Below, in pieces: positions 602 through 35,488 of a DNA stretch of 36,361 nt; the first letter of the stretch is position 1; each line of letters begins with the position of its first letter. Both the position numbers and the translations under genes were made by a program. The DNA lies in IMG/VR virus record IMGVR_UViG_3300042549_005708, positions 1 to 36,361 of that record, one strand, 5' to 3'. Under the pieces are notes generated by a model. It worked only from the letters and a program-made list of their open reading frames with translations. It made no database searches and had not been told where the DNA came from. This DNA is from a virus.

Positions 602-1390
602 TCAGAACAGCCCAGCGGGCTCTGCTATTCGGTCATAGCTGTAGATGATCAGCTCGGTGCGGTCGACCGCCTTTGCACCACCGCCGACCGTGTAGCTTAT
701 CGGCACCTCATCCATTTGCAGGCCCGCAAAGCACGCGCGCACATCAGGGTGGTCATTGATACTCAGCACGGCCTTGCCCTTGATGCCGCGCATCAGCTCG
801 GCCATGGCCGTGTATTGGTCCCAGGGGAAATCCACGCCATAGCCCTCGGTCTGCCAGTAAGGTGGGTCCAGGTAGAACAAGGTGTGGGGGCGGTCGTACC
901 GGCGCATGCACTCCTTCCAATCCAGGCGCTCGACGTAGGTGCTGGCCAGGCGCAAGTGCGCCGCGCTCAGTGTCTCTTCCAGCCGGAGCAAATTGATGGG
1001 CGGCGCGGTGGTGGCGGTGCCCCAAGTCTGCCCTTGCACCTTGCCACCAAATGCGTGGTGCTGCAGGTAGAAGAACCGTGCAGCACGCTGCACGTCGGTC
1101 ATGGTCTCAGGCGGAGTGTCCTGCAGCCACTTGAACACATCGCGGCTGCTAAGCGCCCACTTGAACTGCCGGACAAACTCTTCGAGGTGGTGCTTGACCA
1201 CCCGGTACAGATTGACCAGCTCGCCATTGACATCGTTGATGACTTCCACTTCGGCCGGGGGCCGGAGAAAGTACAAGGCTGCACCGCCTGCAAAAACCTC
1301 CACATAGCAGCTGTGCGCTGGAAAGCGCGGGATCAAGATATCTGCCAGGCGGCGTTTGCCGCCCAGCCACGGGATGATTGGGGTTGCCAT
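602..1390 (-). CDS. DNA adenine methyltransferase, D12 (Dam-like) class
   Basis: This 262-aa protein is an N6-adenine DNA methyltransferase that uses S-adenosylmethionine. The N-terminal PWLGGKRRL (residues 7-15) is the usual start of the D12 class. The AdoMet motif is VEVFAGGAALYF (30-41), and the catalytic DPPY is at residues 175-178. Length and motif order fit the Dam/M.MboI-type family, though the target site cannot be read from the sequence. No restriction endonuclease lies next to it, so it is probably an orphan phage methylase that protects phage DNA or alters regulation. It is the last minus-strand gene of the late region. A small hairpin (about 1421-1438) lies upstream on its strand. 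Confidence 0.9.
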   Translation of the reverse strand: MATPIIPWLGGKRRLADILIPRFPAHSCYVEVFAGGAALYFLRPPAEVEVINDVNGELVNLYRVVKHHLEEFVRQFKWALSSRDVFKWLQDTPPETMTDVQRAARFFYLQHHAFGGKVQGQTWGTATTAPPINLLRLEETLSAAHLRLASTYVERLDWKECMRRYDRPHTLFYLDPPYWQTEGYGVDFPWDQYTAMAELMRGIKGKAVLSINDHPDVRACFAGLQMDEVPISYTVGGGAKAVDRTELIIYSYDRIAEPAGLF

Positions 1391-2853: not shown

Positions 2854-3135
2854 TTACCTCTCTTTGCAATGAAACTGGGCAGGTGGTCCGCTCGACCAGA
2901 AATGTGATGTGACCCACTGCACCTGCAGGATGGCCAGGGCCAGCAGTACGCCGAACCACTCCAGGGGCCAGCCCAGCAGCGGCCAGGGCACGCCGATGGC
3001 CGCCACCGTGCCCAGCAGCCAGAACGATGCACGCACGCCGGCGTGGGTTCCGCTGTTGGTCTTGCTCATGCGGCAGAACACGCTGATGAACAGCAGTGCG
3101 CAGACCAGCTCATGCGCGATCAGCAGATAGCTCAT
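2854..3135 (-). CDS. Small three-TM membrane protein, holin-like
   Basis: This 93-aa protein begins MSYLLIAHELVCALLFISVF. Three hydrophobic segments fall at about residues 2-22, 36-56 and 60-80, with short polar loops. Size and topology match class I phage holins or phage membrane proteins found beside them. Its ATG overlaps the previous stop (ATGA), and a GGAGG motif lies upstream. Its own stop codon lies inside the Shine-Dalgarno region of the endolysin-holin gene, so the two are tightly coupled. It may be the real timing holin or an antiholin partner of the fused holin. Confidence 0.7.
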   Translation of the reverse strand: MSYLLIAHELVCALLFISVFCRMSKTNSGTHAGVRASFWLLGTVAAIGVPWPLLGWPLEWFGVLLALAILQVQWVTSHFWSSGPPAQFHCKER

Positions 3136-5913: not shown

Positions 5914-6869
5914 ATGTTTCCTTTGATGTTGAGATCGACTTGCGCGGTGATCCAGTCCGTGGATCGGACTGAGCCGGTGATCTTTCCGACCGTGGCAAGG
6001 TGGCTGTACTTCGCTAAATTGCTGACCTCGATGGCCACCGCCTTGCCCAGCACCTGGTCGAGCAGCGCCTTTGCCAGTGGGGCCTGGTCGGCATCAATCA
6101 CGCAGCTCAGGTTGATGTTGGTGGCCTTGCGGCCCTCCACCTCGATGTAGGTGCCGTCCTTGCGGGCAGACTCTTCCTGGTAGCTGTAGTCCTGCGTGGT
6201 GGCCTCCATGCCGTACTGGGCGCCGCTGATCTTCTGGCGCGGTGCCAGCAGCTGCCGCCAGTTACCCACGCTCATGAAGCCGATGGCGGCCTCCACGCTG
6301 CCCGTGTTGCGCGACACCGTCACGGTGATCTCGGTGGACGGGTGCAGCGGGATGTTTTTGAGCGTGTAGTACGTGCCCCGCTGCAGGTCGCCGAACAGGT
6401 ATTCATACTCGCCGAAGGCCTGCTGCCACAGCTCCATCGCCACCGGGGGGATCAGGTTGGCACCACCAGCGCCCGCCTTCACGGTGATGCTGAGCGCATC
6501 GCCCTCAATGCCGTAGATGGCCAGGCCGGTGGCAAAGGGCACGTTGAGCACGTAGGTGATGGAGCCAGTTCGCCGCGCCTTCGTGAACAGGTACTTGTCA
6601 AACGGCGCCATCCGGTTGGTGGGTGCACCTTCGTCTTTCAGCCAGAAGGCTGCAGCAGCCGTGGTGCCCGGCGTGTAGGTGTTGGCCGGCGCGCCTGTGA
6701 TGGCCTGCACGCATTCGTACGTGTAGCCATCCCAGACGCGCCGCTGACCCACCGCAAAGGTGCCGCCAGTGGCCCACAGCACCTCTCCCACAGCCGCGTC
6801 CACCTCCGGTATGGTGGTGCCCGCGCCGATCATGCTGGCAGTGATCGTCTTGGGTAGCAGGATGTTCAT
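5910..6869 (-). CDS. Tail protein downstream of the tape measure (distal-tail candidate)
   Basis: This 319-aa protein begins MNILLPKTITASMIGAG. It has a short WDGYTYECVQAITG segment near residue 50 that resembles a chitin/carbohydrate-binding-type module. The C-terminal part (about 235-319) reads like a beta-rich phage tail domain. It overlaps the tape measure stop codon (ATGA), the position normally held by distal tail proteins. The exact family is not recognised, and a minor-tail or baseplate role is inferred from order. Confidence 0.6.
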   Translation of the reverse strand: MNILLPKTITASMIGAGTTIPEVDAAVGEVLWATGGTFAVGQRRVWDGYTYECVQAITGAPANTYTPGTTAAAAFWLKDEGAPTNRMAPFDKYLFTKARRTGSITYVLNVPFATGLAIYGIEGDALSITVKAGAGGANLIPPVAMELWQQAFGEYEYLFGDLQRGTYYTLKNIPLHPSTEITVTVSRNTGSVEAAIGFMSVGNWRQLLAPRQKISGAQYGMEATTQDYSYQEESARKDGTYIEVEGRKATNINLSCVIDADQAPLAKALLDQVLGKAVAIEVSNLAKYSHLATVGKITGSVRSTDWITAQVDLNIKGNI

Positions 6870-9800
6870 GCCATCGCTTTCTGGCGGCTAAAGCTGCCGC
6901 CGTTGGTGTAGGTTTCAAACTGCTGTGCCATCTGCGACATGCCCCGGGTGTTGCTGGCTGTGACGGCAGCTGCTGCTCGCACAGCGGCCATCTCGGCACG
7001 CAGGGCGGCAAGCTCTGCAGCCAGGTCGGCTTGGCCACCGCCCGCCAGGCCAGGGTTGGCCGCCGGGTTGTATGCCTTGGGCACGATCTTTTCGCCCTCG
7101 TGGATCAGTGCCAGCATGTCCTTGGGCACGTAGTCGGTGCCCACAGCAAATGCAGGCACCTTGCCCAGCAGCCCGCGGCGGTACAGGTCCAGCTCAGCCT
7201 CCGTCATCTGCGATGTGGAGCCATCTGCGTAGGTACGCAGCCCGGTGTTGCTGATCGTGGTTTTGCCCGGAGCCGCTGGCGCAATGCCGGTAGGGCCCCA
7301 CACAGCGCCCGAGCCACCTGCCCCGCTTGAACCAGGTGCCGGGCTGCCAGGCGTAATCCCGCGCCGATACAGGTCCAGCTCGCCCTCCGTCATCTGGTAG
7401 GTCGAACCGTCGGAGTAGGTGCGCAAACCTGTTGGGCTGACGCTAACGACCGTCGCCGCAGCCGCCCCGCCACGCGCCCCCCAGGAAGCGCCACTCGCAC
7501 CACCTGATCCACCGGACACCTTGTCTGGTGCCTTCAGGTTCGTGTCGGGGAACATCAAGCCCTTGAGGTCTTGAATGGCCTTTTCGACACTGACCGTGGC
7601 CTCATACGTGCCGTTCGCAATGTCGATCTGCTTGCGCCAATACTCCAGGTGCTCGTCCAGCACTTCGGTCTGGTCCTTGATCGCGCGAATCTGCCGCTCT
7701 GCCTCGCTGAGCTGCAGCTCACTGATGCTGCCCAACTCGTTGAGCTGACCGGCCAACACCAGCGCATCGCGGTCGCGCTGAAACTGGGTGGCATAGCTGC
7801 CGTTGTCGATGCCGTTGCGGGCAGCGTCAATGGCCTGGCTGATGGCATCTGCCTCAGGCAGGTAGCCCGTGGCCCGCGCCGTGGCCAGCGCCTGCATGAT
7901 GAAGTCGCGCCCCTGCGCGGCCTGCATGTCGCGGGTGCTTCCCACCTCGCTGTACAGGTCGCGCACGTTGTCGCGCAGCACATCAAACAGGCTGCTCAGG
8001 CTGCTCGACAGCTCTTCAGCCACCTGCAGCCGGGCGTCCAGCAGTTCGCGTTCGGCAGCCACGGCACGCTCCAGGCTGCGGAAAGCCTTGTCGCGTGCCT
8101 CGGCCTGTTCCCTTTGGATGCGGGCTTCGGCCTCTGCGGCGCTCTCGTTCAGCTCGGCAAAGGCGCCAGAAAGCTCGATCAGCGAAGCCGCTGTTTTGCC
8201 TGCATCCTTGCCTAGGCCCAGCACCTCCGAGTTGGCGTCAATCAGGCCCTGGATGCTCGCCTGCATGTCGGCCGGCTTCAGATCGCTGGCGGTCAGTGCC
8301 GTGACGCTCGCCAGGAAGTCGTTAAGCCGCGCCTGCTCTTTCGGGTCGGCGTTGGGCTTGTTGCCGATCAGAGCCGGGTCAATGCCATCAAGCAGGCCCA
8401 CCTTGCCCAGGTCGGCAATGGTGATGGGTTTCCCCCCAGAAGCGATGTCCGAGAGGCCCTTGCCTGCGGTGGCTACTAGGTTGTCACGGTTCTTGCGCTG
8501 CACTTCCACCTGGTTGAGCTGGTCGGTAACCAGCCTGCGGAACTCATCGCGCGACTGCGGCGTCTTGATGCCCAGGTCGGCGAAGCGCTTGTCCAGGTCT
8601 TCTTTCTTCTTTGCCCGGCGCTCTTCCTCGGTGTAGTAGTTCTGGTAGTAGTCGTTCGTTAGGGCCGCCATGCGCTCCAGCCCGCCAAACGCCTCCGCCA
8701 GTGCGCTCGCCGCATCAGCCCCTGACAAGCTCGCGTCGAGCAGCGTTACACCCAGGGTGTCAAACGCGTCATTCACGCTGGACAAGCTGGTGGCCAGGCG
8801 CGTCAGGGTGTCGATGGCCTTTTCGCCTTCCTTCGCGTACTCGCTGGCCACGTAGCGGGTGGTGGTGCTTACATCGTCCACCTCGCTATAGATCGTGGTG
8901 CGGTCTTCGCCCTCCGTGCCCACGTTCTCGGACACGATGCGGGTGCCCCGCGTGGTCGTGGTCTCGAATCGGCCGATAACCTGCTGGGCCAGCTCGTTGT
9001 TGGCAGTCGCCAGCGCTTCGGAGATCTTGGCGGCAACCTGCTCGCCGCTCAAACCCTCGAAGTTCAAGCCCTTGCCATCTGCACCGCCCAGCGTGGTGGT
9101 GAAGGCACGCACGGCCGCAGAGCCCAGGCCGAGCACGTCGGCCATGTCGCCCACGTTGGTGCGCAGGCCGTCGTATGCGCTCTGGATGGCCTTCGACTGC
9201 TTGGCCACCTGGTCGGCCAGGTCGCCGTATTCAGCCTCCAGCTTGTCCACGATCAGCTGCAGGGTAGACGCCTGCTGCGTGTTGCCCTGCCCCGAATCCT
9301 TGAGCGCCTGCAGCTGCTTGCGGCGGGCCTCAAGCTCAGCAACCGGGTTCATCGTGCTGTAGCTTGGCCCGTCAAAAAGGGTGCCGCCTTCGCGCCATTC
9401 CTCCCATGGGGTCAGGTCGCCCTTGCCCAGCGTACCTGCAATGCCGCTGCCAACGCGCCGCTCGGAGCGGAATGCGCCCACAGCGTTCAACACTGCAGCA
9501 ACCACCAGCGCGGCGACTGCGCCAGGCAGTGCAGCCGATGCCCAGGGGCTCGCTGCACCAGCGCCTGCCGTACCGTAAGCGCCATTCGTAGCCAGAAGAC
9601 CATCGAGCCCAAGGCCGGTGGCGTTGCCGTACACAGAGCCAAGCACGTTGGCGCCCGACATGGTGCCCGCGAAATACTGGCTGCCCAGCGTGTAGGCCTG
9701 CTTGCCCGCGCTAAAGATGCTGAAGGCGTTGCTTGCCGATCCCACGGCGGATGCACCAGCACCCACCGCACCCGCAGCACTGGCCGCACCGCCGCCGCCG

Positions 9801-11872
9801 AACACGCCCATAAGGTTGCCTACGATGTTCACCACGAACTTCTGGGCAAACATCTTGTAGATCTGGTCGGCCACCGCCGTTTTGAACGTGGTCACCAGCG
9901 AGCGCGTGAAGCTCTTCCAGCCCGCCTTGCCGTTGTTCAGCATGTCGGCAAAGCCCTTGCGGAAGATGTCTTCGTACTTTTCGACGGAGCTTTTCCAGTC
10001 CCTTTCAAACTCGCGCGCCGCTTGCGCCGCCTCTTCGCGGTTGCCCCGCGTGGCCATCAGCTCAACCAGTTCCTTACGCTTGGCAATCTCACGCTCGATT
10101 GCCTCGAAGCCCTCAGTGCCCGGCGCGAGGCGCGCCTGGTTCTCCTGCAGGCGCGCAAGTGCCACACGCTCGACAGCTTCCGCAAGCGTGATGTTGAGCG
10201 ATGATGCGAGCGCGATGGCCTGCTCTTCGGACTTCAGCGCGCTGATGCGGTCTTCCACCGTGGCCAACGACTGCGCAGTGGCCCGCTCTTGCGCTTCAAC
10301 AGCGGCGGCAATGGCGTTTGCCTCCCGGTTGCGCGCATCAGCGGCCGTCTGGGCAATTTCAGTGATCAGCTTCAGCGACTTCGCCTCGGCGTCGGCTGCC
10401 GACTTGATCGCGGGCTGCTTGGCAAGCAGATCGGCCTGGGCTTTTGTGTACTGCTCCAGCGTCAGCTGGCCCGCCTTGTACACCGCCGTGAGGCGCGCCC
10501 AGTCTTCCGAGAACGAGGCCGACAGGCCGCCCAGCTCGGCCATCAGCTTTGCCTGATCGCCCATTTCGCGGCGTGCGGCCTCGGCTGCCTTGCGGGCCTC
10601 TTCGGCCGCGCGCTTGCGATCTTCTTCTGCCGCCTTGGCTGCGGCGGGGTCAAACTCCAGAGAGCGCTTGGGGATCACTGGGCCGGCTGGAGCGGCAGGG
10701 ACGCCGCTGGCTGGCACGGGTGCTGCGGCCACAGGCGGCTGCATGCCGTAGACGGACCTGACGCGATCCCAGTAGCCCGAATAAACGGCGCTGACGTTGT
10801 CCTTGTAGTTTTGCGCGCCGATGGAGAGAAAGCTGTTGCCAGCCTCGCGGCCTTCCTTGAACTTCGCGATGACATCGTTCAGGGCCTTGACCATGGGGCC
10901 GCTCAGATCGCGGGCCAGGTCCAACGAGTTCTTGGAGATCTCTGCCAGCTGCTTGTTGAACTTTTCGGCCTCGGCCGCTTGTTCGCCAGTCAGCTTGCCC
11001 ACCAGCGCCGTCTTTTCGGCCAGGTCGTTCAGGAACGGGGCCACATCCTTGATGGACTTGCCGAACAATTCCTGCACCAGGCGGGCCTTGTTGCCATCGT
11101 CGGCAAAGTCAGACAGGGCCACCGCAGTGCGGCGCAATGCCTCTGCGGGGTCCAGGCGGCGCAGCTCTTCCGCGCTCAGGCCGATGGCCTTCAATGCCTC
11201 GGCCTGCGTGCTGCCTGGCTTGGCATCGGACAGCACGGAATTGAACTTGACCAAGGCGGTGCCCACGGTGTCCAGGCTGGTACCGGTGCGCAATGCCGCG
11301 TCTTCCAGCGCGCTCAGGTTTTCAATGCTGGCGCCGGTCGCATCCTTCAGGTCGTTGAGGCGGTCCACCCCATCGTTGATGCTCTTGACGAAGGCGAACA
11401 TGGAGCCCAGCGACAGCCCGGCCAGCATGCCGGAGATGGAAGCCTTGGCGATGTTCGCAACGGTGCTCAGGCCACCAATGGAAGTGCTCAGGCCCGATTG
11501 GGCTTTGGTAGCAGCTTCGGCCTTTGCCTTGGCGGCGTCGAGCTGGTCCAGGTACGGCTTGAGCGCGTTGGTGTCGAGCCCGCGCATGCGGGCCAGCTCT
11601 TCCTGGTAGCGCCGGGTGCTGGTGCCGCCAGCCTCGAATGCAGCAATCTGGCGCTGCAGACTGGCAATGGTGTTTTTGGTGGCCTTATCGACACTTCGGG
11701 CAGCGGCCTCGCCACCGGCGCCAATCTTTTGCAATCCATCGCCACCAGCTTTGCCTGCCTGCTCTGCAGCCTGGCCTAACGATGCCAGCGTACGCTTGGC
11801 GCGGCCTACGCCCACCTCTACGCCCGAGGCGTCCGCGCCGATCTTGATCTCTGTGCTCAGGTCTTCGGACAT
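6866..11872 (-). CDS. Tail tape measure protein
   Basis: This 1668-aa protein is by far the longest in the window and follows the tail chaperone pair, the standard siphovirus position. It is rich in Ala, Gln, Lys and Glu helices with coiled-coil character, and has hydrophobic stretches near residues 135-160, 640-700 and 765-790. Near the C-terminus, two copies of TGLRTYxDGSTxQMTExELDLYRRG are followed by FAVGTDYVPKDMLALIHEGE, the common tape measure ending. It sets tail length and is ejected with the DNA. I chose the ATG at 11872; a TTG start at 11884 would add four residues. A small hairpin (11923-11940) lies just upstream. Confidence 0.92.
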   Translation of the reverse strand: MSEDLSTEIKIGADASGVEVGVGRAKRTLASLGQAAEQAGKAGGDGLQKIGAGGEAAARSVDKATKNTIASLQRQIAAFEAGGTSTRRYQEELARMRGLDTNALKPYLDQLDAAKAKAEAATKAQSGLSTSIGGLSTVANIAKASISGMLAGLSLGSMFAFVKSINDGVDRLNDLKDATGASIENLSALEDAALRTGTSLDTVGTALVKFNSVLSDAKPGSTQAEALKAIGLSAEELRRLDPAEALRRTAVALSDFADDGNKARLVQELFGKSIKDVAPFLNDLAEKTALVGKLTGEQAAEAEKFNKQLAEISKNSLDLARDLSGPMVKALNDVIAKFKEGREAGNSFLSIGAQNYKDNVSAVYSGYWDRVRSVYGMQPPVAAAPVPASGVPAAPAGPVIPKRSLEFDPAAAKAAEEDRKRAAEEARKAAEAARREMGDQAKLMAELGGLSASFSEDWARLTAVYKAGQLTLEQYTKAQADLLAKQPAIKSAADAEAKSLKLITEIAQTAADARNREANAIAAAVEAQERATAQSLATVEDRISALKSEEQAIALASSLNITLAEAVERVALARLQENQARLAPGTEGFEAIEREIAKRKELVELMATRGNREEAAQAAREFERDWKSSVEKYEDIFRKGFADMLNNGKAGWKSFTRSLVTTFKTAVADQIYKMFAQKFVVNIVGNLMGVFGGGGAASAAGAVGAGASAVGSASNAFSIFSAGKQAYTLGSQYFAGTMSGANVLGSVYGNATGLGLDGLLATNGAYGTAGAGAASPWASAALPGAVAALVVAAVLNAVGAFRSERRVGSGIAGTLGKGDLTPWEEWREGGTLFDGPSYSTMNPVAELEARRKQLQALKDSGQGNTQQASTLQLIVDKLEAEYGDLADQVAKQSKAIQSAYDGLRTNVGDMADVLGLGSAAVRAFTTTLGGADGKGLNFEGLSGEQVAAKISEALATANNELAQQVIGRFETTTTRGTRIVSENVGTEGEDRTTIYSEVDDVSTTTRYVASEYAKEGEKAIDTLTRLATSLSSVNDAFDTLGVTLLDASLSGADAASALAEAFGGLERMAALTNDYYQNYYTEEERRAKKKEDLDKRFADLGIKTPQSRDEFRRLVTDQLNQVEVQRKNRDNLVATAGKGLSDIASGGKPITIADLGKVGLLDGIDPALIGNKPNADPKEQARLNDFLASVTALTASDLKPADMQASIQGLIDANSEVLGLGKDAGKTAASLIELSGAFAELNESAAEAEARIQREQAEARDKAFRSLERAVAAERELLDARLQVAEELSSSLSSLFDVLRDNVRDLYSEVGSTRDMQAAQGRDFIMQALATARATGYLPEADAISQAIDAARNGIDNGSYATQFQRDRDALVLAGQLNELGSISELQLSEAERQIRAIKDQTEVLDEHLEYWRKQIDIANGTYEATVSVEKAIQDLKGLMFPDTNLKAPDKVSGGSGGASGASWGARGGAAAATVVSVSPTGLRTYSDGSTYQMTEGELDLYRRGITPGSPAPGSSGAGGSGAVWGPTGIAPAAPGKTTISNTGLRTYADGSTSQMTEAELDLYRRGLLGKVPAFAVGTDYVPKDMLALIHEGEKIVPKAYNPAANPGLAGGGQADLAAELAALRAEMAAVRAAAAVTASNTRGMSQMAQQFETYTNGGSFSRQKAMA

Positions 11873-11922: not shown

Positions 11923-11940
11923 AGCCACCCGAGGGTGGCT
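11923..11940 (-). terminator. Short hairpin with T-run between the chaperone and tape measure genes
   Basis: AGCCACC pairs with GGTGGCT around a short loop, and on the minus strand it is followed by CTTTTCC. The stop codon of the frameshifted chaperone lies at its edge. It may be a weak terminator or a messenger-processing or stability hairpin. Confidence 0.4.
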
Positions 11941-12744
11941 ACTTGTGTTTGCCTGCGGCTGCAGCGCGGATAACGGGCAGTGCGGCCTGCTCCATCACTT
12001 CGAGCGCGGCCAGCAGGTCGGCCCACTCATCGGGCGGCAGGTTGAGCCGGTCGATCAGGGGGTACACGGCCTCCCAGCGCACGCCGATGACTACGGCCCC
12101 CATCCCGCCCGAGGCATGCACCCAGCGGGTGCCGAGCCGGCAGAACATCTGCACTGCCTGCTCGTTCTCGGGCCAGATCTCCAGCTCTTCGCTGTCGTAG
12201 TCCTCAAGCTCGAAGCCCGCCTCGCGGGCCTCCGCCTGGGTGATGGGTGGCTCGTGCAGCGCCGCAGCGCAGGCCCTCAGTTTCCCAGCTGGCCCTGGTA
12301 GATGGCGCGGTCGTAGCGGGTGACGATCTCGCCCAGTGCGCCGCCGAAGCGGTCTTCCAGCTCTTCGAGCGCTTCGGCTGTGAATTCGTCGTCCACGTCC
12401 CAGCCTTTGGCGATCTGCAGCACCAGACGGGCGTCGTTCTCAATCGAGCGGCCCACGCGCGATTCCAGCGTGGCGGCTTCGTCCAGCTCGGCTGCGTCGG
12501 TGTCCTTGCCCTCTTCGGCCGCGGTGCGGGCGGCGGCATCGGCACGCAGGTCGGCGTAGAACTTGTCCTTGATGGCCGACCAGGCGCGCTTGCCGTGGGC
12601 CGTCATCGTGAGGGTCAGCTCCAACAGGCCGCCATCCAGGCGCTTGAGCTGCAGCGTGAGGGGGAAGGTAACGGCCTGGCCAGCGGCAAGGCTCTTGAGC
12701 TTGATGGGCTGAACGGTCTTGGGTGCTTTGGTGGTGTCGGTCAT
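11939..12744 (-). CDS. Tail assembly chaperone fusion (G-T type) made by -1 frameshifting
   Basis: If ribosomes slip back one base at GGGAAAC (12280-12286), translation passes the stop at 12277. It then continues through LRACAAALHEPPITQAEA to the TAG at 11939, giving a 268-aa product (155 + 113 residues). The downstream part (ELEIWPENEQAVQMF, then VRWEAVYPLIDRLNL and DEWADLLAALEVMEQAALP) resembles the small tail assembly proteins encoded by the T frame of lambda-like phages. It has no convincing independent start. The pair sits between tail tube and tape measure genes, exactly as lambda G and GT do. The products are expected to coat the tape measure during tail assembly. Confidence 0.85.
12277..12744 (-). 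CDS. Tail assembly chaperone, unshifted product (G-like)
   Basis: This 155-aa protein starts at the ATG giving MTDTTKAPKTVQPIKLKSL and ends YQGQLGN. It has a beta-rich N-terminal domain and an acidic C-terminal helix (DEFTAEALEELEDRFG). It fits phage tail assembly chaperone families by size, acidity and position. It is the major product of the gene, and most ribosomes should stop at the TGA right after the slippery AAC codon. It is separated from the upstream tail tube gene by 113 bases containing GC-rich hairpins. Confidence 0.85.
   Translation of the reverse strand: MTDTTKAPKTVQPIKLKSLAAGQAVTFPLTLQLKRLDGGLLELTLTMTAHGKRAWSAIKDKFYADLRADAAARTAAEEGKDTDAAELDEAATLESRVGRSIENDARLVLQIAKGWDVDDEFTAEALEELEDRFGGALGEIVTRYDRAIYQGQLGN
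12280..12286 (-). other. Programmed -1 ribosomal frameshift site GGGAAAC
   Basis: The heptamer is in the correct phase (G GGA AAC), and the zero-frame stop TGA follows immediately. A GC-rich stretch with a possible GCGC/GCGC hairpin begins a few bases downstream. Lambda uses the closely related GGGAAAG between G and T. Confidence 0.85.
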
Positions 12745-14009: not shown

Positions 14010-14446
14010 GGGGGCAGTTCCTTTCGTACCTGCGCGGCCAGCACCTGCTGCGCCGTGCTCAGCGCCCGCTGGCGGGCTGCGTCATACCCGGGCCGCAGGA
14101 ACGGGCGGGCAGCCATGCGGCTGGTGCCGCGCTCCAGCAGGCCGCCATGCGGTGCCTTGCGCTTGTTCCAGCTCACGCGGTACACACTACGCGCGTCGCC
14201 CGATTCGTCGTCTGCATACGCCTGGTAGATCGCATCCCGCAGCGTGCCGGTCTGCACGAACGGGGCATTGCCCGGCGCGCTGTGCTTCTCGGCACTGCTG
14301 GCGGCGGTGGATGCCCGCTGGCGTACCTCTTCGTACAGCACCTGGGCGCCGGCCTGCGCTGCGGGCCGGGTGGCTGCAGCGGCTGCGGCTGTGATCTTGT
14401 CGAGCTTGGCGTTGATGGCCGTCAGGTCGATGCTGGCGGTGATCAT
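14006..14446 (-). CDS. HK97 gp10-like neck/tail component
   Basis: This 146-aa protein begins MITASIDLTAINAKLDKI. It is helical at the N-terminus and then carries APFVQTGTLRDAIYQ and ends in GTSRMAARPFLRPGYDAA. The G-T-S/R-M-x-x-R-P-F-L-R-P motif is characteristic of the HK97 gp10 family of head-tail components. It overlaps both neighbours by four bases (ATGA), including the homing endonuclease upstream, so the inserted endonuclease gene is translationally coupled to it. Confidence 0.88.
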   Translation of the reverse strand: MITASIDLTAINAKLDKITAAAAAATRPAAQAGAQVLYEEVRQRASTAASSAEKHSAPGNAPFVQTGTLRDAIYQAYADDESGDARSVYRVSWNKRKAPHGGLLERGTSRMAARPFLRPGYDAARQRALSTAQQVLAAQVRKELPP

Positions 14447-15138
14447 GTGACCACCTGCGTTTGCATCTTTTCGGCCTTTGTTTTTGCCCAGCGTGCAGCC
14501 TGCGCCGCCGCCATCCGCTGCTTAGTTTCAGGACTAGCCTTTTTGCCCAGCTTGCGACTTCGCATCTTTTCGATCGAAGCCTGCGTGTGCGGTCCGTGCG
14601 GTATGCCCTTTTTTGCAGCGCTGATCCTCGCTGCAGTTTCCGGGCTGACGTACTTGCCACGGTTAGCCTCGTTGGCTTTTTGGCGAGCCTCGGGGTTCAT
14701 AAGATGGACCTTGTTGCGCTCCACCTGCGCTGCTCGCCGCTCTGGAGTCATTTTCTTCCCGCGCCCTGCAGCGCTCATCCTGGCGCGAGCTTCTGCCGAA
14801 GCCATCCTCCCCAGCGATGCCTGACGCATTTTCTCGCGCGCCTCGGGTGAATGGGTCCGGCCGCTGGCGCCTTCGCCGCCCTCGGTGAAATTGGCCAGGG
14901 CGATGCCAGAAGCCTTGAAAGAGGCTATGAGCTGGCACTCATGAATGAAGGCAGCTCGCTCATCCTCAAAGCGCTCGATGATTTCGACAATGACGCCGTG
15001 TTTGCGTGCGATCCGTTGCCAGAGCTGGGTCCGAGGCTTGAACTTAAAGGCTCGCCGGCCTGAACCCTTGCCGACGTAGAAAACCTCTTTGGTATCGGCC
15101 CGCCGATGGAGGTATGTGTAGAAATTCGTACAGCTCAT
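14443..15138 (-). CDS. Free-standing GIY-YIG homing endonuclease with NUMOD3-like repeats
   Basis: In this 231-aa protein the GIY-YIG-type core appears as FYTYLH (6-11) followed by YVGKG (21-25), with Arg28 and a candidate metal-binding Glu67 in FIHECQL. From about residue 85, several repeats of the pattern SPEAREKMRQASLGR are DNA-binding NUMOD3-type modules, each with conserved Ser-Pro, basic and small residues. Such enzymes cut phage genes that lack the insertion and spread themselves. It breaks the usual order head closure then gp10-like, and its base composition looks less GC-rich than its neighbours. A 50-base gap upstream could carry its own promoter. The start used is MSCTNFYTYL. Confidence 0.88.
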   Translation of the reverse strand: MSCTNFYTYLHRRADTKEVFYVGKGSGRRAFKFKPRTQLWQRIARKHGVIVEIIERFEDERAAFIHECQLIASFKASGIALANFTEGGEGASGRTHSPEAREKMRQASLGRMASAEARARMSAAGRGKKMTPERRAAQVERNKVHLMNPEARQKANEANRGKYVSPETAARISAAKKGIPHGPHTQASIEKMRSRKLGKKASPETKQRMAAAQAARWAKTKAEKMQTQVVT

Positions 15139-15188
15139 TTTGAAATCACTTCGTGTACGGGGGCCGCATCCTAATAGTGCTTTCGATT

Positions 15189-15506
15189 TCACGCCAGCAC
15201 TTCGCAAACTAAATCCAGATACTCGCGCCCCGCAGCGTCGGGCAGCACGGCCAGGATGTTGTACGTGGTGCCGCCGCTGACAACGCGCTGCCCCGCGTTG
15301 ATGCCGGTGCGATATCGCCGCCGGATCGATGCCTGCACAGTGCTGGTGGTGGCCCCGGCCTTGATCGACTCCAGCCCGCCAGTGTGGCGAATGTCGGCCC
15401 AGAAGCCCTCCACATCCACCCAGGTGGCCAGCGGCTGGCCCATGCTGTCTTGCACGGTAGTGGCCTGCTGCAGCGTGCAGCTGTTGCGCAAGGTGCCCGC
15501 GCGCAT
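15189..15506 (-). CDS. Head closure (head-tail joining) protein
   Basis: This 105-aa protein begins MRAGTLRNSCTLQQ, the classic opening of the SPP1 gp16-like head closure family. It contains WADIRHTGGLES and ends with AGREYLDLVCEVLA. It closes the portal after packaging and connects it to the tail. I chose the ATG at 15506, which overlaps the upstream stop as TGATG. An in-frame ATG at 15518 would add four residues and start MGGV. Confidence 0.85.
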   Translation of the reverse strand: MRAGTLRNSCTLQQATTVQDSMGQPLATWVDVEGFWADIRHTGGLESIKAGATTSTVQASIRRRYRTGINAGQRVVSGGTTYNILAVLPDAAGREYLDLVCEVLA

Positions 15507-16057
15507 CACACCACCCATGTGCGGTAGGGGTCCAGCAACCGGTCGGCAAAGCTGTGGGGCACGGTGGGCTTGTCGGTGCTGCCCTCGCGGTTGGCGTACA
15601 TGTCACCCACGGCCAGCAGCATCCACGCCTTCAGCGGGGCCGGCACGCTGGCCCGGCCTGCCGTGAAGTCCACCTCTACCGCGTTGACCTGGTCGCGCGT
15701 GGCAGGCCATGCCTTGCCATAGGCCGGCACCACGTAGCCCGGCGTGCTGGCCGTGTCCACCGTGTAGTCCTGCGGCGCCAGGGTTTGCAGCGCGCCGTTC
15801 GCGTCGATGTAGCGCACAGCGTCTACCGAAGCGAGGGGGCCGCGCACCAGCCGGATCGCATCAGGGAAGGCATCGAGCGTGAGGCGCCAGCTGGTGGTGG
15901 GCAGCGTGGTGTCCAGCCGGTCTTCGCAGCTCTCGCGCGCGGCGGTGATGTACAGCGCGATCAGCGCGTCTTCGGCCGAGTCCGTCACACGCAGGTGCTG
16001 CTTCGCTTCGGCCAGGGTTACAGGCTCGACGGGGGTGGTGATGCGGATGGGGTTCAT
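15506..16057 (-). CDS. Head-tail connector protein, gp6-like
   Basis: This 183-aa protein begins MNPIRITTPVEPVTLAEAKQ. The segment VTLAEAKQHLRVTDSAEDALIALYITAARESCEDRL is the diagnostic helical start of the phage gp6-like/YqbG connector family. The C-terminus contains LKAWMLLAVGDMYANRE. It forms the ring below the portal. It starts with a four-base overlap with the small gene upstream and ends overlapping the head closure gene. Confidence 0.9.
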   Translation of the reverse strand: MNPIRITTPVEPVTLAEAKQHLRVTDSAEDALIALYITAARESCEDRLDTTLPTTSWRLTLDAFPDAIRLVRGPLASVDAVRYIDANGALQTLAPQDYTVDTASTPGYVVPAYGKAWPATRDQVNAVEVDFTAGRASVPAPLKAWMLLAVGDMYANREGSTDKPTVPHSFADRLLDPYRTWVV

Positions 16058-25551: not shown

Positions 25552-28296
25552 TCAAAACGGCGCATCGTCACCTTCCTGTGTGAATGGGCTGGCCGCTGGC
25601 GGTGGTGCCAGGGGCGCAGGTGGTGGGCTGGGCGGCAGGCCGTTCTCCAGTCCGGTATCAGGGTCGGCCTTGGGCCAATCCTTCGGCCGCGTGTAACCCC
25701 AGGCGCGGGCGCCATTGATCTGTTTCTTGACGCGCTCCCAGCCCTCGTGATCCAGCCAGCTGCGGATCTGCCCTTCGAGGGCGGGCGTACTCTTGGCAGC
25801 GTCCACACCCAGGGCCAGGGTCAGCTGGGCAATGGTCACAAACTCGGTCAGCTCGTTGACCACAGCACCAATGCCCGCAGCCGTCGGGGCGCGAGTCAGC
25901 ACATGCAGCAGTTCAGACAGCACCGCCGTCTCCACCAGGCGGCTTTCCTGCATGGGCACAAACAGCCGGCGCTCTTGATCCGTGGTGGGCGTGTACACCG
26001 CGCCCTGCCCGTACAGCGCAAAGGCCTCAGCCAGCAGCTGCTCGCGGTACTTCTTCAGCCACTCCGTGTTGATGATGTGCCGCACCGGTATCGGCCAGAA
26101 GCGCCGGTTGCCCGTGCGGTCGCGCAGGTACGTGTTTTCGTTTGTGGTGCCCACCAGCAAACACTGGCGTGCGAAGCTGCCCACCGTGGCGCCATAGGCC
26201 ACCCGGTAGCGGTCCACCTTGCTGCTGATAAATGCCTTGATGGCGCCCACCTCCGCCTTGCTGAAGTGCGTCAGCTCAGCGATCTCATACAGCCACAGGC
26301 CCTGCACCTGCTCTTGCGCCTCTTTCCCACGGCCCACCTCGAAGGGGGTGTCGCTGAAGTATTCGCTGCCCGCCAGTGCCTCCACCAGCGTGCTCTTGCG
26401 CAGGCCGCCCGCGCCTTCCAGCACAGGGCAGTAGTCAAACTTGCAGCCGGGCTCCATCACCCGGTACACCATGCCCAGCAGCCAGCAGCGGCCCACGATC
26501 TGCAGGTACTCCATCATGGGCTTGCTCAGGCTGTCCGGGCTCTCGCCCAGCACATGCACCAGCCAGTTGTCGATACGGCTCTTGCCGTCCCACTCCAGGC
26601 CCTGCAGCATCTCGCGAATGGGGTGAAAGCGGCGTGTGTGCGCCACCGTCTGGATCGCCTCAGCCAGGGCCGCGCGCGAGATGCTGGGCAGGCCATACGT
26701 GTCTGTCAGGTACTTGCCCAGCAGCAGGTCCACTGCATCCGTCACATCGCCCGCCTTCGCATAGGCCCACGGCCATGCCGTGCGGGCCTGCACGTTGTTG
26801 CTCAGCTCGTTGTAGGCCAGCACATCCTTCAGGGCCGGGTCGCGCTCCAGGATCAGGATGACCATCTTGCGGCTTGCCAGCCAGCGCTTGTTGGTCTTGT
26901 CGTAATACGGCACCAGCCAGTCCGGCACCATGTACGCGCCGATGCGGGTCATGCCCGTGTCGTCGTCATCCTCGCCACCCAGCGCAGCACCACCGCCAGG
27001 GGCATCGCCCCCACCGCTACCACCGCTCCCGGTGCCAACGAGGCCATCGATTTTTTTGCCGGCCGCCGGCTCTGCCACCTCGCCATCAGGCAGCGCATGC
27101 GCCCGTGCAAAGAAGGCCTGCACGCGTGCAAAGTCCCAACCATCGGCCTCGATCGCGTCACGCGCGTCCCAGCCATCGGCCACCGTGCCAGGCGCAGGTA
27201 TGGGCAGCAGCTGCACCGTGCAGCCGTGCGTGTCACGCAGCAGCGCACCAATGCCCAGCATCGCCTTCATGCCCGGTTGCTTGCCTTCTGGCAGCAGCGG
27301 CATCGCCTGGGCCGCCAGCTTCAGTGTCGCCTCGCGCACCTTCGCGCGGTCTTTATCCGTAATGTTGCCAAGGCTCTCAAGCTGTGCCATGGCCTGCGCC
27401 ACCACATGGTCCTTTAGGTCCTTCGGCACCGCCTCACGCTTTGCATCACAGTCAGGCCACAACATCACTGTGCAACCCGTCAACCAAGACCAATCAGCCT
27501 TCGCCCATACCTTGCAGCCGCCGGGCCAGCTGACAACGCAATACACGCCCGGGGCACTCGCGTCCAGCAGCTGCTGCAAGCACTCGGCCTTGCGCTCACC
27601 TTCCACCAGCACCACCGTGCGCCCACCGGGCAGTGCACCACTGGGCAGGAACAGCGGGCGGGGTTCGTCCCACTGGCGCCAGTGCCATTTCGCAGCGCCA
27701 TCGCGCGCGCTCATGCACCAGGTGTACGGCAGCGTGTCTTTGCCCCCTGTGCTAGTAATGAACCGGGCCACATAGCCATGCAACTCATCGCCAACGCGGT
27801 AGGTGGCTTTGTGCTCCAAGGTCTCGGGCTTGCGGTCAAAGTGCTTAAAGGTCGGCGTCGCCGCATTGGCAGGCACCGGCCGCACCGTAGTCCACCCCTC
27901 GGGCTCTGCCGCTGGCTTGGGTGCAGGCGCGGGCCTGGGCGGTGCTGGCGGTGGCGGCGTGCCACCTGCAGCCGCCTTCACCAGCCCGGCCACGCTCTCC
28001 AGGCCCTCTTCGCGCGCCACCTGAATGGCCGCCTTCGCCTGGCTCAGGCCATGAATGGCCGCGTACAGGCTCAGCAGGTCTCCGCCCTGCTCATCGCTGG
28101 CAAAGTCTGCCCAACGTCCGTTGACCAGGTTGATGCTGCAGCTGCTGCCCTTGCCACCGCTGAGCGAGCCGCACACGTACTCATGCCCGCGGCGTTCGCC
28201 ATCGGGCAGCCACATCGGCACCAGCCGGTCAGCACTGGCCAGCAGCGCTTCGGCCAGGGCCGCGAATTGAATGGGAGGCAATGGGGCGTTGCTCAT
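25552..28296 (-). CDS. Primase-helicase, Toprim plus VapE-type ATPase
   Basis: This 914-aa protein is a replication protein. The N-terminal part has a primase-like region (HEYVCGSLSGGKGSSCSI, then GGDLLSLYAAIHGLS at 71-85). After a proline-rich linker comes a Toprim-like domain with VVLVEGERKAECLQQLL (228-244, Glu232) and LWPDCDA (279-285). A Gly-rich linker follows, and then the VapE/virulence-associated E helicase domain. Its Walker A is LEGAGGLRKSTL (626-637), with Arg in place of the usual Gly, a known variant in the family, and Walker B is LWLYEIAEL (667-675). It probably primes and unwinds phage DNA. The start is MSNAPLPPI. Confidence 0.9.
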   Translation of the reverse strand: MSNAPLPPIQFAALAEALLASADRLVPMWLPDGERRGHEYVCGSLSGGKGSSCSINLVNGRWADFASDEQGGDLLSLYAAIHGLSQAKAAIQVAREEGLESVAGLVKAAAGGTPPPPAPPRPAPAPKPAAEPEGWTTVRPVPANAATPTFKHFDRKPETLEHKATYRVGDELHGYVARFITSTGGKDTLPYTWCMSARDGAAKWHWRQWDEPRPLFLPSGALPGGRTVVLVEGERKAECLQQLLDASAPGVYCVVSWPGGCKVWAKADWSWLTGCTVMLWPDCDAKREAVPKDLKDHVVAQAMAQLESLGNITDKDRAKVREATLKLAAQAMPLLPEGKQPGMKAMLGIGALLRDTHGCTVQLLPIPAPGTVADGWDARDAIEADGWDFARVQAFFARAHALPDGEVAEPAAGKKIDGLVGTGSGGSGGGDAPGGGAALGGEDDDDTGMTRIGAYMVPDWLVPYYDKTNKRWLASRKMVILILERDPALKDVLAYNELSNNVQARTAWPWAYAKAGDVTDAVDLLLGKYLTDTYGLPSISRAALAEAIQTVAHTRRFHPIREMLQGLEWDGKSRIDNWLVHVLGESPDSLSKPMMEYLQIVGRCWLLGMVYRVMEPGCKFDYCPVLEGAGGLRKSTLVEALAGSEYFSDTPFEVGRGKEAQEQVQGLWLYEIAELTHFSKAEVGAIKAFISSKVDRYRVAYGATVGSFARQCLLVGTTNENTYLRDRTGNRRFWPIPVRHIINTEWLKKYREQLLAEAFALYGQGAVYTPTTDQERRLFVPMQESRLVETAVLSELLHVLTRAPTAAGIGAVVNELTEFVTIAQLTLALGVDAAKSTPALEGQIRSWLDHEGWERVKKQINGARAWGYTRPKDWPKADPDTGLENGLPPSPPPAPLAPPPAASPFTQEGDDAPF

Positions 28297-28373
28297 GCGG
28301 CACCCCCACTGCAAAAGTCACAGAAGCCAGCGTCTCCACCGCCAGCGGCGTCCAGTGCAAAGGTCATGGGGTG

Positions 28374-32943: not shown

Positions 32944-33302
32944 GCCGCCGCCGCATCTCCAAGGCCAGCGACAGCATCAGCCTGGCCAAGCCCAACATGA
33001 CCGCAGTGCACCTGCAGCGCGGCCGCCCCACACCCCTGCGCACCGGCGGCCTGCATGACATCGGTGCCACCAACGTATCCGCCCACGGCAAGGTGCTGAT
33101 CAGCCCAGTGCCCAACGCAGCCGAGCTGGCCGCCCGCCGCCAGAGCGAGCGCCTGGAGATCGCCAGCAACGACATGCCCGTGCGCAACAGCACCATGCGC
33201 GGCCCGGCCTACACCTGCCCCGAGCTGCGCACCAACCCACCCCGCCCCGGCAGCGCAGACGCCTTTCGCCTGCCCAGCCGCACCAGCTTCAACAAGGGAT
33301 GA
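32940..33302 (+). CDS. Basic protein of unknown function before the ParB-like gene
   Basis: This 120-aa protein is strongly basic and rich in Arg and Pro. It has an N-terminal MSRRRISKASDSISLAKPNM and a region MPVRNSTMRGPAYTCPELR. No enzyme motif is visible. It is the immediate partner gene of the ParB-like protein (ATGA overlap), so it may act with it. Confidence 0.6.
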   Translation: MSRRRISKASDSISLAKPNMTAVHLQRGRPTPLRTGGLHDIGATNVSAHGKVLISPVPNAAELAARRQSERLEIASNDMPVRNSTMRGPAYTCPELRTNPPRPGSADAFRLPSRTSFNKG

Positions 33303-35488
33303 CCACCATGGCCACCGACCAGCACGACACCTTCACCGCCACCCTGCCCGCCTCCGGCGCAGGCCCGCAGATGCGCATGGTGGAGATCGCCCTCATTGAA
33401 GAGAGCACCACCAACCCCCGCAAGACTTTTGACGCGGTCAAGCTGCAAGAGTTGGCCGATAGCATCAAGTCCAGCGGAGTGCACCAGCCCATCCTGCTGC
33501 GCCCCCTGCCCGGCCACCGCGTGCCCGAGACGTGGGGATGGCGCCGCCAGGGCGCACCCCTGCCCCAGTACGAACTGGTGGCCGGCGCCCGGCGCCTGCG
33601 CGCCTGCAAGCTCGCCAAGGTCACCGAAGTGCCCGCCATGATTCGCGAGCTGACAGACGCCCAGGCGCGAGAGATCCAGGTCATCGAGAACCTGCAGCGC
33701 GAAGACGTGACCGAGCTGGAGGAAGCCGAGGGCTACGAAGAGCTGATGCGCCAATGCAACCTCAAAGCCGACCAGGTCGGCGCCAAGATCGGCAAAAGCC
33801 GCAGCTACGTGTACGCCCGCCTCAAGGTGCTCGACCTGTGCCACCAAGGCCGCCAGGCCCTGCGCGAAGGCAAGATCGATTTCAGCCGCGGCCTGCTCAT
33901 CGCCCGCATCCCCGACGAGGCCCTGCAGCTCAAGGCACTGCACTTCTGCACCGACCCCGACTGGCAGGGCGACATGCCCGGCTACCGCGAATGCGCAGCC
34001 TACGTGCAGCAAGAGTTCATGCTGCGGCTCGACAAAGCCCGCTTCAACATCGCCGACGCCACCCTAGTGCCCGACGCAGGCAGCTGCAAAGACTGCAGCA
34101 AGCGCACCGGCGCCAACCCCGACCTGTTTGCCGACGTGAAGAGTGCAGACGTGTGCACCAGCCCGCCCTGCTTTCACGCCAAGGAACAGGCCCACGCCGC
34201 ACTGATGGTGGCCCAGGCCCAGGCCAAGGGCATCACTGTCATCGCGGGCAAAGAAGCGCAAGAGCTGATGATCGGCAGCTACCAGCCCAAGCTCAAAGGC
34301 TACAAGCGCCTGGACAGCGTGGAAGACAGCCCAACCGACCAACCCCTGCGCAAGATCATCGGCGCGCAGATGGAGGCCGAAGGCATCAAGCCCGTGCAGA
34401 TCGAGCACGCTCGCAAGCCGGGCGAGCTGATCGATGCCCTGCCCAATGAAGTGGTGCTGCGCCTGCTCAAGACCGTAGAGGGCCAGGCACAGGCCACCAA
34501 AGAAGTGGCGGCCGAGGTCAAAGAATTTGCCGACAACAAAAAGGCCAAGAGCCTGGCCAAAGCCACAGCGCAGTACGAACAGGCGTGGCGCAACAAGCTC
34601 GTGGACCTGAGCTGGGTACAGATCGAGTGCGCCACGCCCCACAGCCAGTTCACCCGCGAAGTGCACCGCTACGTGGTGCAGCGCGAAGTCAACAGCCTGA
34701 GCCAGGACGACGCTGCAGTCGTGGCCGACATCTTGAACCTCGGCAAAGTGGCCCCGCACAGCGCCCTGCTCGACTACGCCAAGACCACCGCCTACCCCGA
34801 CCAGCTGCACCTGCTGGTCATCATGCAACGCGACAGCGGCGCGAGCCACTACGCCCACAACCGCCCCAAAAACGAAGGCCTGATGCTGGTGGCAGGCATC
34901 GTGTTTGACGATGGCCTGGACACCCTCATCGAGCAACTGCAGGCCGAGGCACGCGAGCAATACCTGCCCAAACCCGTGAAAGTTGCGGCTCCGAAAGCCG
35001 CCTCTACCCCTGGCCCCGCTGCGCAAGCTGTACCTACGCGCGAGGGTGCCAAGGGCACAAAGACCAAGGGCAAAAACGCGCCCGCTGCGCAAGCCCGCGC
35101 TACCGCGCCCAAGACATCGAAGGCCGAAGCCAGCGCCCAGATCGCTGCGCAGCTGGCGGCGCTGGAGGAACAAGACCAGGCGCCTGCGGCGCAGGGCAAC
35201 GAAGGCGCCCCCGCTCCTTCGGGCGGGGACGCATCCGCTACCCATGGCGAGGTCGGTGCAGGCGCAGAGACCGGGCCGGCAGTCGAAGCAGGCACGCTCG
35301 CCATCGGCGCCCGGGTCAAGGTCAAGCCCACCGCCAACGGCCCCAAGCAGGCCCCCCACGTCGGCAAGGTAGGCACCATCGAGCGCAAGGTAGGCCCCGA
35401 CGCCTGGGACGTAGCCATCCCCCGCGAAAAGCGCTCCGTGCCCTTGTTCGTGGCCTTCCACTCGACTGAGCTGCAGGTGGTGGCATGA
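33299..35488 (+). CDS. ParB-like protein with zinc-finger-like and KOW-like C-terminal regions
   Basis: This 729-aa protein has an N-terminal ParB domain: TNPRKTFDAVKLQELADSIK (38-57), LVAGARRLRACKLA (93-106) and VIENLQREDVTELEEAEGY (128-146). A KorB/ParB-type helix-turn-helix (AKIGKSRSYVYARL) follows. Then comes a Cys cluster CKDC and later CTSPPC (about 262-288), suggesting a zinc finger. A long Ala/Lys-rich linker precedes a short domain, GARVKVK and GKVGTIERKVGPDAWDVAI, like a KOW/SH3 fold. ParB-family proteins bind centromere-like palindromes and use CTP; no parA lies nearby. It overlaps the ASCH-domain gene (ATGA). Confidence 0.82.
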   Translation: MTTMATDQHDTFTATLPASGAGPQMRMVEIALIEESTTNPRKTFDAVKLQELADSIKSSGVHQPILLRPLPGHRVPETWGWRRQGAPLPQYELVAGARRLRACKLAKVTEVPAMIRELTDAQAREIQVIENLQREDVTELEEAEGYEELMRQCNLKADQVGAKIGKSRSYVYARLKVLDLCHQGRQALREGKIDFSRGLLIARIPDEALQLKALHFCTDPDWQGDMPGYRECAAYVQQEFMLRLDKARFNIADATLVPDAGSCKDCSKRTGANPDLFADVKSADVCTSPPCFHAKEQAHAALMVAQAQAKGITVIAGKEAQELMIGSYQPKLKGYKRLDSVEDSPTDQPLRKIIGAQMEAEGIKPVQIEHARKPGELIDALPNEVVLRLLKTVEGQAQATKEVAAEVKEFADNKKAKSLAKATAQYEQAWRNKLVDLSWVQIECATPHSQFTREVHRYVVQREVNSLSQDDAAVVADILNLGKVAPHSALLDYAKTTAYPDQLHLLVIMQRDSGASHYAHNRPKNEGLMLVAGIVFDDGLDTLIEQLQAEAREQYLPKPVKVAAPKAASTPGPAAQAVPTREGAKGTKTKGKNAPAAQARATAPKTSKAEASAQIAAQLAALEEQDQAPAAQGNEGAPAPSGGDASATHGEVGAGAETGPAVEAGTLAIGARVKVKPTANGPKQAPHVGKVGTIERKVGPDAWDVAIPREKRSVPLFVAFHSTELQVVA
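34142..34159. repeat. Dispersed palindrome, copy E
   Basis: AGTGCAGACGTGTGCACC matches the reference 18-mer at 15 of 18 positions. It lies within the ParB-like gene at the codons for SADVCTS. Confidence 0.45.

Follow-up and report, generated by a model that had tools for sequence, protein, structure and literature searches.

A putative -1 ribosomal frameshift giving G- and GT-type tail chaperones, with DUF1799 as the T half, in a siphophage-type tail operon

The DNA examined in this study, an IMG/VR virus record of 36,361 bases analysed over its whole length (the window), very probably carries a -1 programmed ribosomal frameshift within a siphophage-type tail operon, giving G and GT tail assembly chaperones. 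Domain identity and gene order support frameshifting of the G/GT type, as do the absence of a separate start for T and a near-universal slippery heptamer held in phase among relatives. The production of two tail chaperone forms through a one-base ribosomal slip is well known in phages, and Xu, Hendrix and Duda are reportedly, from 2004, the namesakes of the G/GT-type -1 programmed frameshift in tail assembly chaperone genes. For this phage, the gene model is corrected to one gene with two predicted products.

The site lies on the minus strand, where a 0-frame ORF (12277–12744) encodes a protein of 155 aa ending in QGQLGN. A first-pass annotation of this DNA had described an in-phase G_GGA_AAC heptamer directly followed by the 0-frame stop, and this was confirmed: G precedes GGA AAC, the final two sense codons of the ORF, placing the heptamer at 12286–12280 and the abutting TGA at 12279–12277. 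The -1 frame extension (11939–12280) is open for 113 codons, as had also been stated, and ends at the TAG at 11941–11939; the interval originally given, 12277–12744, therefore covers the 0-frame ORF but not the extension, which reaches beyond it to 11939. The -1 reading at the junction is LRAC, the opening residues of the extension are LRACAAALHEPPITQ, and the expected length of the G-T fusion is 268 aa. The GGGAAAC string is not in itself rare, with six occurrences in the window against 3.4 expected, and the case therefore rests on phase, neighbouring genes and relatives. Taken together, phase, stop, the match of the -1 product to PF08809 and conservation in relatives exceed chance.

The 0-frame protein matches PF08748 (Phage_TAC_4) with an E-value of 7.5e-19 and 68.6 bits (curated cut-off 21.1), the match reaching the last residue, and is annotated as a G-type tail assembly chaperone. 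The tail assembly protein-like domain that had been proposed for the -1 frame proved to be DUF1799 (PF08809; E-value 1.6e-15, 57.5 bits, curated cut-off 26), matched over T residues 22–103. All nine PF08748 carriers in a survey of 299 genomes also carry PF08809, adjoining it, and a single profile, phrog_17368, covers both the G and the T parts. The PHROG "tape measure" labels on both parts are misleading.

The gene order likewise upholds the earlier comparison with the lambda G/GT arrangement between tail tube and tape measure. The tail tube protein gene (Phage_tail_3, PF08813; 12858–13508, minus strand; 5.1e-24 with Pfam and 2.2e-48 in a second profile match) lies upstream of the chaperone gene, and the tail tape-measure protein gene (6866–11872, minus strand; phrog_25966, 3e-86) lies downstream, with no intervening gene on either side; the ATG start of each is inferred. 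Farther upstream on the same strand is the head module, comprising terminase, portal, HK97-type capsid, head completion and gp10-like genes. Flanked by the head-completion and HK97-gp10-like genes is a reading frame (14443–15606, minus strand) with a NUMOD3 motif and a GIY-YIG-like stretch, NFYTYLHRRADTKEVFYVGKGSG, which probably encodes a homing endonuclease that has inserted itself into the morphogenesis module. Elsewhere, the window encodes a D12-class adenine methyltransferase (602–1390, minus strand), a replication protein with a VapE-like domain (25555–28314, minus strand) and a ParB-like protein of 729 aa (33299–35485, plus strand). Additionally, a hairpin resembling an intrinsic terminator, AGCCACCCTCGGGTGGCT followed by TTTCC, starts within the T stop codon (11923–11940, minus strand) and lies in the gap that separates GT from the tape-measure gene. 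Hairpins of this kind stand 3' of T in 27 of 109 relatives, compared with 3 of 109 for a control region, and the annotation of phage Silvanus includes one; the hairpin might limit transcription of the tape-measure gene.

The alternative that T is a separate gene, with a start of its own or reached by termination-reinitiation at the stop of G, is very improbable. It would find candidate starts in the CTG codons at 12280 and 12259 and the ATC at 12244, and several GenBank records do annotate T as its own CDS with an internal start. Upstream of the site, however, the -1 frame is stop-free for 51 codons, and the first 42 of the 113 codons of the extension contain no ATG, GTG or TTG. The earliest such codon past the upstream stop in this frame is the GTG at 12154, 71 codons before the end, and a start there would cost the DUF1799 match roughly its first quarter. 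The internal starts annotated in relatives fall at scattered positions, and a separate gene would leave the retention of a phased heptamer unexplained.

Searches of GenBank phages with the G protein (tblastn) and with the whole gene (blastn) gave no match, so conservation was assessed through T, profile and tail-tube searches, giving three independent selections of loci made without reference to the heptamer. The collection scan used the closer alignment rows (A2), alignment A1 being too diverse. Among loci picked by T protein similarity, an in-phase GGGAAAC or AAAAAAC stands at the junction in 56 of 58 (absent from L011 and L050). After removal of duplicates this set comprises 50 sites, 45 with GGGAAAC and five with AAAAAAC, the stop being adjacent in 44 and no more than 9 nt away in all 50; these 50 were filtered on the two heptamers, and 56 of 58 is the less biased figure. 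In loci selected with the DUF1799 profile, where 32 heptamers were permitted, all 59 carry an in-phase XXXAAAC (22 GGGAAAC, 37 AAAAAAC), a result drawn mostly from 500 bacterial genomes of one phylum and one family and including a few loci shared with the T-similarity set. The stop is adjacent in 43 of these and within 54 nt in 57, whilst in the remaining two, which are near-identical, it comes at 105 nt. Selection by the neighbouring tail tube protein gave a site in 22 of 24 loci (21 XXXAAAC, one GGGAAAT), each with an adjacent stop, and one of the two loci lacking a site (L143) has only 564 nt past the match. The conservation of heptamer and open -1 frame called for by the first-pass annotation was thus found by each selection, and the site is near-universal in the relatives examined. 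Further GenBank phages agree (Klebsiella RCIP0075, Vibrio Marilyn, Pseudomonas Medea1 and KL1), whereas Microcystis yong1 does not, and such genes are annotated as fused in Silvanus, KL1 and Smarc2.

Against this reading, a canonical site is missing from a few relatives (L011, L073, L009, L050 and L157). In L011, Pectobacterium phage Taid, no XXXYYYZ site is found at 2985–3005 and the G ORF ends CAA AAG TAA immediately ahead of the T frame, which may represent a shorter slip on A_AAG, with the stop adjacent. In L009, Salmonella phage STSR3, five A residues are present at 2990–3005, against six in related phages. Contig L050, which is close to L029, L033 and L034, has a short in-phase deletion at 2480–2510 that removes the heptamer and leaves T in the -1 frame, and is either a defective variant or an assembly error. 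In L142, downstream of 4681, GGGAAAT replaces GGGAAAC.

GGGAAAC and AAAAAAC swap at the same position across relatives, as is expected from tRNA slippage. The presence of six A residues in some relatives could also suit a transcriptional origin of the second frame, in which RNA polymerase slips at the A/G run, since A runs can slip in transcription. This carries almost no weight here: the window has only GGG and AAA, GGGAAAC is the commoner heptamer in close relatives (45 of 50), and the conserved phase relative to the reading frame is a requirement of the ribosome and not of the polymerase. A sequencing error or the decay of a formerly continuous gene, to which the deletion in L050 and the missing A in L009 might point, is scarcely credible when the identical break, placed at the identical codon pair, occurs in more than 100 loci from independent isolates, prophages and metagenomes.

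Codon usage around the site bears on both the heptamer and the stop, with the limit that the counts come from related sequences and are not independent events. In close relatives the codon GGA makes up 14 of 453 glycine codons elsewhere in the G ORFs but 45 of 45 at the GGGAAAC sites. The -1 frame always opens with CTN, which is CTA at 15 of 50 sites, whereas CTA makes up 29 of 507 leucine codons elsewhere in T frames and 7 of 690 in G frames. A 0-frame stop is created when the first -1 codon is CTA, or CTG followed by A; where it is CTC, the stop comes 6–9 nt later. This pattern suggests selection for an early 0-frame stop as such, whether because it gives G a clean end or because it belongs to the signal.

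The efficiency of such a site is less easily read. The resemblance to the lambda heptamer GGGAAAG that had been pointed out holds in that there is a one-base difference, but XXXAAAG belongs to the efficient class in E. coli, whilst heptamers ending in AAC, such as A_AAA_AAC, are reported to be inefficient there (PMC4066793), which counts against the frameshifting reading. The further proposal that a stop beside the slippery codon may raise efficiency found no support in the literature consulted: when a stop was set directly 3' of the HIV-1 heptamer in a bacterial system, E. coli, frameshifting fell, and with extra RF2 it was abolished (Horsfield 1995, cited in PMC4373837). Rous sarcoma virus and barley yellow dwarf virus provide natural cases of a stop adjacent to the heptamer (PMC4373837). 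From the reported low efficiency and the effect of the stop, it may be hypothesised that an AAC heptamer with an adjacent stop keeps shifting low, or makes it dependent on release factor.

A stronger version, in which the adjacent stop throughout the DUF1799 group is part of the recoding signal and is paired with a poorly slippery AAC heptamer, is rather unlikely. With the stop in the A site, slippage from the E and P sites would compete with release-factor binding, and the G:GT ratio would be set by release-factor activity. If this were true, tail-assembly stoichiometry would respond to the termination efficiency of the host. The conserved site also raises the question of why a heptamer class reported as weak in E. 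coli, and usually abutted by a stop, should be fixed in the DUF1799 group.

With regard to RNA structure, no unusually stable fold was found in the first 40–60 nt past the site of the window, the z scores being +0.75 over 40 nt, +1.39 over 60 nt and -1.29 over 100 nt (folds computed without pseudoknots); this, like the lack of raised synonymous constraint noted below, weighs against the frameshifting reading. Across 88 non-redundant sites, the mean downstream z45 is -1.2 for GGGAAAC and -1.6 for AAAAAAC, with 41% of sites below -2, whilst the upstream control is near 0. Because these downstream folds are more stable than shuffles, unlike the control, stimulatory structures are predicted to be common in the group; they are not claimed for the window. 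Three further candidates were rejected. A conserved downstream stem-loop in close relatives was set aside as synonymous constraint was not raised, and a hairpin that seemed stronger beside AAAAAAC than beside GGGAAAC in three phages showed no such difference across the 88 non-redundant sites (P 0.31). Additionally, an upstream Shine-Dalgarno-like stimulator was infrequent (5 of 54 GGGAAAC and 8 of 34 AAAAAAC sites, against controls of 2 of 54 and 1 of 34).

Structures were predicted from alignments built without rows from GenBank phages, giving a confident fold for T (mean pLDDT 92.7) and a mean pLDDT of 85 for G. Amongst solved structures, the match to the G model that covers most of both proteins is the HK97 tail assembly chaperone (2ob9; Z 4.8, rmsd 4.5, 98 aligned), and with so low a Z the resemblance is only suggestive. 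Among viral models, the best matches come from phage Scapp, whose matched proteins, of 129 and 236 aa, are tape-measure chaperones. Searches of PDB sequences with the G and T profiles returned chance matches only, and the T model showed no convincing resemblance to a solved structure, which does not establish that its fold is novel.

The arrangement, domains, gene order and conservation observed here are by far best explained by a -1 frameshift at the heptamer. The majority of ribosomes would make G and terminate at the TGA abutting G_GGA_AAC, whilst a minor fraction, probably a few percent, would move back by one base at GGGAAAC, with the tRNAs for Gly and Asn re-pairing on GGG AAA, and would read the 113 DUF1799 codons to give the GT fusion. 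For two genes of a tail chaperone cluster of the HK97-like kind, frameshifting was measured at 6–7% (PMC3711429). In lambda, G attaches to the tape-measure protein and T delivers tube subunits, and a G:GT ratio of around 30:1 matters (PMC5009743). On the model of lambda, G and the G portion of GT would coat the tape-measure protein, the T portion would recruit tail-tube subunits, and neither would stay in the virion; it is from this analogy that chaperone roles for G and GT are proposed.

More generally, DUF1799 appears to be the frameshift-encoded T half of a tail chaperone, linked to an XXXAAAC site at essentially every locus sampled. The VarioGold paper (PMC9658991) names DUF1799 without mention of frameshifting, and the general identification may be a small addition to the literature, though possibly it is stated elsewhere. 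It is of modest interest that phages with DUF1799 almost always have a heptamer ending in AAC, usually with the stop abutting.

Lambda shares with the window the order V-G-T-H (tube, G/T, tape measure), the -1 shift and a two-product chaperone, but differs in its GGGAAAG heptamer and in a 0-frame stop that lies 15 nt downstream rather than abutting. Chaperone genes preceding the tape-measure gene in the phiCbK group and Colossus (PMC3556154) and in HCTV-1 and -2 (PMC5009743) have AAAAAAC or GGGAAAC shift sites, as does that of Loki (PMC5313236), where the heptamer abuts the stop; these are likened to the window by site and position. The HK97 chaperone is likened by predicted fold at low Z, there being no match at the level of PDB sequence. 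The closest parallel in design is gp18/gp19 of Burkholderia phage KL1 (JF939047; PMC3483164), in which, as verified in the record, GGGAAAC abuts the gp18 TGA with a -1 shift, giving products of 142 and 264 aa from a gene upstream of the tape-measure gene. Unlike the window, KL1 places a further gene, gp20, after the frameshift gene and ahead of the tape-measure gene, and its proteins are absent among the phage matches to the T or G of the window. The design seen in the window is therefore already known, KL1 gp18/gp19 having been published in 2012 (PMC3483164).
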